This document shows positions 8,070-10,478 of a stretch of DNA of 64,000 nt, piece after piece (position 1 is the stretch's first letter; each line of letters starts with the position of its first letter). The DNA is from Candidatus Bathyarchaeota archaeon. Its GTDB lineage: Archaea; Thermoproteota; Bathyarchaeia; Bathyarchaeales; Bathycorpusculaceae. The position numbers and the translations under genes were made by a program. The notes below the pieces were generated by a model that saw only the letters and a list, made by a program, of their open reading frames with translations, had not been told where the DNA came from and made no database searches. Location of the stretch: NCBI GenBank assembly GCA_026014665.1, contig JAOZHX010000017.1, positions 310,001 to 374,000 on the forward strand. The letters are read 5' to 3'.

Positions 8070-8243
8070 GTTTCTTTTGTCTTTTGGTCTTTATGTGGGT
8101 GTGGTGGTATGTTGAAGATGCCTACATTGCCACGTAGAAAAGCGATAGCGCTTCATTTAGCAAAGATTCTAAAGGCTACATGGGAATCCCAAATTTTAGA
8201 AAGCCTTAATTTCAGCTTCTTTCATAGCCGTATAAGGTCGAGC

Positions 8244-9908
8244 ATGAAGTTTACCCGCAGGTTTCCTCTTGTTTTGCTGCTGGTCATCATCGTGGTTTTA
8301 CCCAATGCTTCTTTCTACCCAGCAATCAGCGGCGCGTCTGCTGTTGAGGATAAACCCTTTTTCGGAGTTACGTTCGGCGGCAACACCACTAGTGAAGCTA
8401 AAGTGCTCATCGATGAAGTGAAAGGCTACATAAACCTCTTTGTGGTCGATAATTGGGATGTCGCCCTAAACGAGACTGCTCTGACTGAGATTTGCCAATA
8501 TGCTTACGACGCAAACTTGTACTTCATGGTTTACTTTAGCTTCATATTCTCTGCGCCGTCCCAACTGAACAGTAGCAGACTCAACCTATTCCAAGAAGCA
8601 GGCCTCGTTCCCTTCCATACCGCTTGGTTGAGTTCAGCAAACGACAGGTGGGGAGACAAATTCTTAGGCGCTTACGTTCTCGATGAACCCGGCGGCAAAC
8701 AAATAGACAAGCAACATTACAGTGGCTTTGCCACAAACTATGCTGGAAGAAACCAAACAACCTTCATTAATGTTACAAGCTACAGCGATGCTGCAAACCG
8801 TTTTGTCCGCGGAGTGAACGGCTACATGCGACTCCTCAACAATGCAACCTACCTCAACTCCATCCCCAATGCCACTGGCCGCGTTATTCCGGTGTTCACT
8901 GCTGATAACGCTCTTTACTGGTTTGATTATCTAGCAGGTTACGACACGGTGTTTGCTGAATTGGGCTGGAACCACAACGAAGCGCAACATATAGCGCTCT
9001 GCAGAGGCGCCGCAAACGTTCAAAACAAAGAGTGGGGCGCTATCATAACTTGGGCAACCAACGACCCGCCCTACATGGCGACAGGAACCCAGATGCTAAA
9101 AGAACTCAACATAGCATACGAAGCAGGCGCCAAATACCTCATTGTATTCAATTACCCGCAAATCAACCCTTACGGTGCCTTAACTGACGAACACTTTAAC
9201 GCTATGAAAAATTTCTGGAACAGAATCCACACATCGCCACGCAAAAATGTGGTTAAAAGCGGGCAAGTGGCGTTTGTTCTTCCGAAAGATTATGGATGGG
9301 GTATGCGGTTGGCAGATGACAGAATCTGGGGTCTGTGGGATGCAGATGAGTTGGCGCCAGAGATCGGCACGAAAATAGTTTCTTTAATCAATCAGTACGG
9401 CACCAACTTAGACATAATCTACGATGACCCGAGATTCAACTATACAGAGAAATACTCAACTCTCTACTATTGGAACGGCACAACCTACCAAACATCCGGA
9501 GTCTTCAACCTTTCAGCACCTACCGTCCTATACCCCTCGATCGTACTGGTAACCGCCATAGTGACATGCGTCCCTTCTTACCTTATGATTAAAAATAAAA
9601 AGCGCAGACCATCCAAAGTGCAGACAATTCATCTTCCACGATCCAAAGCAACGCTTAAAGGTTTAGGCAAGGGCGAGTTGGAGTTTGTTGATGACAAATT
9701 AAGGTTCTACAAGCAAGAAGGCTACTTCAAGAACCGCCAAGAGTTGATACGGGAAATTCCCCTCGGCATGGTTGAAGGATTTGAGCGGCTTGATAACACT
9801 TTGGTCATCACATGGAACGGAACCACCGACACGCTGTTCATCCAAAACCCAAAGCTACTGGCGTCTATAGCCCAGAGTATATTCGATAAATTGGAGCAAC
9901 AAAGGTAG
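8244..9908 (+). CDS. Secreted glycosidase-like TIM-barrel protein with C-terminal PH-like domain
   Basis: The start ATG 8244 gives 554 residues with a signal peptide (hydrophobic about 8-35) and avoids a 45-residue N-terminal extension lacking family character. The ectodomain (about 45-400) has a barrel-like pattern reminiscent of glycoside hydrolases: INLFVVDNW, GAYVLDEPGG (possible acidic catalytic residues), FAELGWN and AKYLIVFNYP. It has many NxT/S sequons. A transmembrane helix at about 430-455 is followed by a cytoplasmic domain of beta strands (about 465-545) ending in a helix. The reading frame stops at TAG 9906-9908 but stays open in the same frame through 19 more codons into the next gene (9966-10478). 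No exact enzyme family could be named. Confidence 0.7.
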   Translation: MKFTRRFPLVLLLVIIVVLPNASFYPAISGASAVEDKPFFGVTFGGNTTSEAKVLIDEVKGYINLFVVDNWDVALNETALTEICQYAYDANLYFMVYFSFIFSAPSQLNSSRLNLFQEAGLVPFHTAWLSSANDRWGDKFLGAYVLDEPGGKQIDKQHYSGFATNYAGRNQTTFINVTSYSDAANRFVRGVNGYMRLLNNATYLNSIPNATGRVIPVFTADNALYWFDYLAGYDTVFAELGWNHNEAQHIALCRGAANVQNKEWGAIITWATNDPPYMATGTQMLKELNIAYEAGAKYLIVFNYPQINPYGALTDEHFNAMKNFWNRIHTSPRKNVVKSGQVAFVLPKDYGWGMRLADDRIWGLWDADELAPEIGTKIVSLINQYGTNLDIIYDDPRFNYTEKYSTLYYWNGTTYQTSGVFNLSAPTVLYPSIVLVTAIVTCVPSYLMIKNKKRRPSKVQTIHLPRSKATLKGLGKGELEFVDDKLRFYKQEGYFKNRQELIREIPLGMVEGFERLDNTLVITWNGTTDTLFIQNPKLLASIAQSIFDKLEQQR

Positions 9909-9965
9909 CTGCTTGAGAAAAAGGAAAAGCTGCAAGAAGAGGTTACAAAATTACAGGACGATGGC

Positions 9966-10478
9966 ATGGAAATCATTGACTTACTGTTTAACGTTTTAAG
10001 GAATCTAAACAAGAAAAACATAGATTGGATGCAAATAGAAAGCTGCCTAAACCAGCGCCGAGAATTTAACCCCTTCAACCTGGACTTTTCTAAGCTTTCA
10101 GTGGCCATACAGGGGCATCTTGCGTTAGAGACCTCAAAGGAAACCTACAACTTACTAAAAACTCTCTATGAGCATTTTTCATCGCTAGCCAAGAAAAACG
10201 TTATGCAGCAAGGGATTTGTCCCGACTACCGAGAACTAAAAACAATAATTTTAACGTATTACACACTCAACGACGTCATACTCAGCATGGTGATCGGCGA
10301 CAGGAGCAGCCAAAAAGAAATAGATGAACTCCTACTGATGCTGGAAGCAATGCCAAAGAGAAACAACTCAAAACTTAACGTCGCTGCCTTTAGAGACGCA
10401 ATTGCCGCAATAGGCAAAGACACAGGTGTAGAAGATGCCGTTGCAAAGTTGAGGATTCTATTTAGAGCACTACTTTGA
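9966..10478 (+). CDS. Alpha-helical protein, possibly the C-terminal part of the preceding gene
   Basis: This 170-residue, mostly helical protein has no recognised domain. It is in the same frame as the gene ending at 9908, and the 19 codons between the TAG and this ATG contain no stop and encode a coiled-coil-like run (LLEKKEKLQEEVTKLQDDG). It may therefore be an independent translationally coupled gene (AGGA lies about 8 bases before the ATG) or the tail of a longer protein interrupted by one amber codon. Its own sequence has Leu-rich helices and ends AVAKLRILFRALL. No signal peptide is present, so as a fusion it would lie on the cytoplasmic side of the membrane. Confidence 0.6.
   Translation: MEIIDLLFNVLRNLNKKNIDWMQIESCLNQRREFNPFNLDFSKLSVAIQGHLALETSKETYNLLKTLYEHFSSLAKKNVMQQGICPDYRELKTIILTYYTLNDVILSMVIGDRSSQKEIDELLLMLEAMPKRNNSKLNVAAFRDAIAAIGKDTGVEDAVAKLRILFRALL

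Follow-up and report, generated by a model that had tools for sequence, protein, structure and literature searches.

According to a 2021 review (PMC8211752), selenocysteine and pyrrolysine are the only cases for which stop-codon read-through has been shown in archaea. One genome of the Bathyarchaeota, JdFR-11, is reported to carry a pyl cluster (PMC9723677). We analyzed an in-frame amber codon in a window of 64,000 nucleotides from the genome of a Candidatus Bathyarchaeota archaeon (contig JAOZHX010000017.1, positions 310,001 to 374,000; GenBank assembly GCA_026014665.1). Our results suggest that this codon likely represents a recent amber nonsense mutation specific to the lineage, i.e., an ordinary gene breakage.

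Translation of the plus strand of the window, on which all parts of the locus are located, confirmed that the TAG at 9906-9908 is the sole in-frame stop across 8244-10478. Beyond it, 19 codons remain open up to an ATG at 9966, and the frame closes with a TGA at 10476-10478. The coordinates given in the preliminary description are correct. The same frame is also open upstream of 8244, as far as an ATG at 8109. The position 8244 is the likelier start, since the Met of the closest homologue (L004) aligns there and is followed by a signal peptide. The probable start codon and the N-terminal signal peptide or membrane helix therefore occupy 8244..8345 (helix 7-22 of the model). Downstream of the TAG, the ORF running from ATG to TGA (9966..10478; 170 codons) covers a helical C-terminal domain and has a putative start of its own; it is delineated by homology, kept residues and codon usage. 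Past the stop, this frame is the only one with a coding-like codon usage (0.141 bits per codon, the remaining frames scoring −0.029 and −0.128). The open frame after the stop is more than a chance occurrence, because homologues exist in the same frame and are joined to the part preceding the stop.

We then considered the region that follows the transmembrane helix, which we refer to as the tail (9615-10475; 287 codons). AlphaFold2 predicts a PH-like domain, a long helix and a helical C-terminal domain. The PH-like domain (9642..9905) is modeled with the PH fold, a seven-stranded barrel capped by a C-terminal helix, and Foldseek matched it to PH domains (probability 1.00, E-value 4e-3, TM-score to target 0.66 for 1eaz). 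Nothing noteworthy matched the C-terminal domain in Foldseek, and no sequence match to the tail was obtained in Pfam, NCBIfam or PDB. The amber codon (9906..9908) lies within the helix that joins the two domains of the tail: a single helix of 53 residues (tail residues 79-131; pLDDT of about 85-94) is predicted to run through the stop at residue 98, and the 19 open codons (9909..9965) continue it. This prediction agrees with the helix continuity across the TAG that had been guessed at before.

The tail, read through the TAG, was used as a query to search the 91 genomes of the taxonomic family. Relatives were found in 22 of these genomes (E ≤ 0.01) and most matches cross the site uninterrupted. 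Homologues that could be aligned across the TAG position (21 in total) were compared to the sequence of the window, the linker being loosely aligned in some of these members. The position is occupied by a sense codon in all 21 homologues and the amber codon is kept in none of them. The residues at the site are mostly Lys (14 homologues: 12 AAA and 2 AAG), then Glu (three), and Gln, His, Ile and Leu (one each). A five-way alignment with the closest relatives is gapless at the site (LEQQR-stop-LLEKKE vs LDAQR-K-TLEHKE). An unbroken paralogue is even present in the same genome (L055): it has AAG at the site and its own end, on TAG, at the C-terminus of the family. Homologues did not consistently end at the PH-like domain, the pattern named in the preliminary description as evidence against a single gene. 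Moreover, the PH-like and C-terminal parts were not seen as adjacent genes split at this point in any of the 163 genomes of the order. Given the sense codons of all 21 homologues, the unbroken paralogue and a stop located inside a continuous predicted helix, the two open frames are, as judged from these alignments, one ancestral gene. The central claim of the preliminary description is thereby supported. Of all the genomes searched, this one alone carries the stop.

The tail family is uncharacterized and found in Bathyarchaeota: its relatives belong to Candidatus Bathyarchaeota, and the members that align with the tail end to end (e.g., L034-L052 and L055) share 24-34% identity with it. No tail homologue above ~36% identity was found in the searches made. 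For the part following the stop, a single-protein search of the genome contigs gave no closer relatives, an alignment-based search returned apparently the same relatives as before, and none were found among viral contigs. Three stand-alone tail proteins (L037, L048 and L055) present an N-terminal hydrophobic helix and basic residues, followed by the PH-like domain. The hydrophobic N-termini of several stand-alone proteins suggest that the module formed by the PH-like and C-terminal domains may often be membrane-anchored. Two members (L035 and L048, from genomes G016 and G031) are extended by a long proline-rich segment, which terminates in both with a common motif (VRRLRKTILGY / FGRRLRKAIMGY). 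At another locus (L047 and L059; G029:C26:102222-103341), a complete tail gene is immediately preceded by the end of a gene for a membrane protein that has a PH-like domain of its own, an arrangement resembling a tandem duplication of the portion encoding this domain. Finally, a second disrupted member of the family was observed in G017 (L053 and L060; G017:C2:30629-31445, minus strand). Its C-terminal domain resumes in another frame, with matches covering positions 19-195 and 204-280 of the query and a short gap in between, so that a frameshift or an assembly error appears to be responsible; this differs from a split of the TAG type.

The part of the gene that precedes the tail belongs to another family. 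Residues 1-414 and the transmembrane helix define a multicopy family of Bathyarchaeota, with homologues in 59 of the 91 genomes and nine matches in this genome. The extracellular domain (8346..9490) is predicted to be a TIM-barrel. Its best Foldseek matches are GH42 and other glycoside hydrolases or barrel enzymes (E-value ~1e-6) with low TM-scores, and we therefore describe it only as glycoside-hydrolase-like. Searches of Pfam, NCBIfam and PDB sequences with the barrel part yielded no match. The domain is followed by the transmembrane helix and a basic stretch, KNKKRR (9528..9605; helix 429-454 of the model), where the alignment to L004 and L005 stops. The nearest barrel homologues, found in G082 and G081, are ~65% identical and end right after the transmembrane helix. 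An internal TAG that had seemed to be present in a barrel paralogue of the same genome (G000:C11) was discarded as irrelevant, because it is located just before the start codon of the paralogue.

Two barrel proteins, one from G031:C2 (L058) and one from this genome (G000:C2; L062), are uninterrupted and consist of a barrel, a transmembrane helix, a linker and the C-terminal domain, without the PH-like domain. With the exception of these two fusions, no barrel gene was detected near the tail homologues (flanks of up to 1.5 kb). No significant remnant of a tail was found beside the barrel homologue of G082, which argues that the tail was acquired by fusion rather than lost. The simplest history is probably that a gene encoding the barrel and the transmembrane helix was fused in this lineage to a separate gene encoding the PH-like and C-terminal domains, and that the stop arose afterwards. 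The ancestral protein would have comprised, in this order, a signal peptide, a TIM-barrel ectodomain, a transmembrane helix, a cytoplasmic PH-like domain and a helical C-terminal domain.

The preliminary description had proposed three options for the TAG: a recent nonsense mutation, read-through or pyrrolysine insertion, and two coupled genes. Recent and ordinary breakage is the most likely explanation because every comparable relative reads through the site, and it is the option that fits best. A single substitution in the joining helix would suffice, for instance AAG to TAG; AAG is one substitution away from TAG, and Lys codons of these two types (AAA or AAG) are found in 14 of the 21 homologues. 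With standard termination, the product would be a membrane protein that stops behind the PH-like domain, and the C-terminal domain would be missing or made only weakly. Such a loss could be tolerated, since further members of both families (barrel and tail) are present in the genome. The direction of the mutation, its recency and its effect on the product are what we infer here. One observation counts against a nonsense mutation: the part following the stop appears to show no clear extra decay relative to the part preceding it. Considering the columns that are invariant in the other 20 sequences, the window retains 12 of 14 after the stop and two of four before it, and the two residues lost after the stop are conservative changes (L to V and D to N). 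Profile scores are low and about equal on both sides of the stop (difference of −0.13 vs 0.08 in the others; sd = 0.33). This lack of additional decay implies that the mutation is recent, that the fragment is still translated, or that the base is wrong. The last of these, an error introduced at this one base by sequencing or assembly, or else a variant present in a minority strain, is improbable in our view; a single-base error would nonetheless be sufficient, the surrounding sequence is intact and the contig is probably metagenomic, given the fragmentary assembly and the fact that its relatives are mostly MAGs. Translation of the fragment after gene fission, with ribosomes stopping at the TAG and a separate C-terminal protein being re-initiated from the ATG at 9966, 57 bases further on, is likewise unlikely. 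The downstream frame is open and coding-like, its conserved residues are kept, and an AGGA is found 8 bases upstream of the ATG. In addition, the C-terminal domain may work apart from the PH-like domain, as the fusions of G031:C2 and G000:C2 contain the former without the latter. However, the Shine-Dalgarno energy of this ATG (−3.9) is equaled or bettered by 26% of the internal ATGs of the window, and 87% of the best gene starts in the window present an SD that is as strong or stronger. A start at 9966 also falls inside the joining helix and removes the near-invariant position 110, and the split form was found in no genome searched (163 of the order). The option of two coupled genes, which our results do not support, keeps a low probability.

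Programmed read-through of the amber codon or insertion of pyrrolysine, giving a short and a long form of the protein, was found to be highly improbable. Although the downstream domain is conserved and in frame, and JdFR-11 offers a precedent for pyl genes within Bathyarchaeota, the machinery was not detected. The best PylS matches in this genome, which is 94% complete, reach 30 and 22 bits relative to a cut-off of 178, and PylD has no match. PylS is also absent from the 91 genomes of the family, a search with a strict E-value finding only the control, Methanosarcina acetivorans. No CUA anticodon is present among the 40 tRNA matches to RF00005, intron-containing genes included, with the caveat that this model could miss an aberrant tRNA-Pyl. 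The search for pyl genes suggested in the preliminary description gave a negative answer for PylS, PylD and a CUA tRNA, and the corresponding option is not supported. Furthermore, folding of the 131 bases surrounding the stop is no better than that of shuffled sequences (z = 0.30), none of the 21 homologues keeps the TAG, and the archaeal cases recognized in the 2021 review are limited to the two amino acids mentioned above. TAG terminates 11 of the 53 long ORFs of the window, which stand in for the whole genome here, which supports the earlier remark that a general reassignment of TAG is unlikely here. A switch that needs no pyrrolysine was also considered: the TAG could be maintained for regulation, with near-cognate read-through or re-initiation producing a membrane protein that stops at the PH-like domain and, at a lower level, a full-length or separate C-terminal form. 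We regard this scenario as quite unlikely. As a separate observation, many tRNA genes of this genome contain introns (e.g., Met, Gly, Ser, Pro, Trp and Tyr; L083, L093, L095-L100 and L102 of genome G000), and most of them are missed by ARAGORN with default settings. For L102 the anticodon is ambiguous, since ARAGORN assigned it to Ser-CGA and another placement of the intron would give CAA.

For annotation purposes, the two predicted genes are best treated as one interrupted gene, which should not be cited in support of amber recoding among Bathyarchaeota. More broadly, the locus is of interest for the protein family itself, which joins a barrel ectodomain through the membrane to a PH-like domain and an uncharacterized helical domain, and whose tested members have no sequence match in Pfam, NCBIfam or PDB.

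Compared to known systems, the locus resembles the methanogen pyrrolysine genes mtmB, mtbB and mttB in having an in-frame amber codon within an open frame. It differs from them in that no Pyl machinery was found, that the gene encodes no methylamine methyltransferase and that the amber codon is not conserved. It also resembles a nonsense-interrupted gene, or young pseudogene, in having a single stop in an otherwise intact frame, a sense codon in all relatives and intact family members elsewhere in the genome. In contrast to such genes, the frame contains no further frameshifts or stops, which indicates that the locus is at most a very young pseudogene. Finally, the tail aligns from end to end with the Bathyarchaeota family that combines a PH-like domain and a helical C-terminal domain. 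Elsewhere this family is stand-alone or follows a short N-terminal membrane segment, whereas here it is placed behind a barrel protein with a transmembrane helix and carries the stop.
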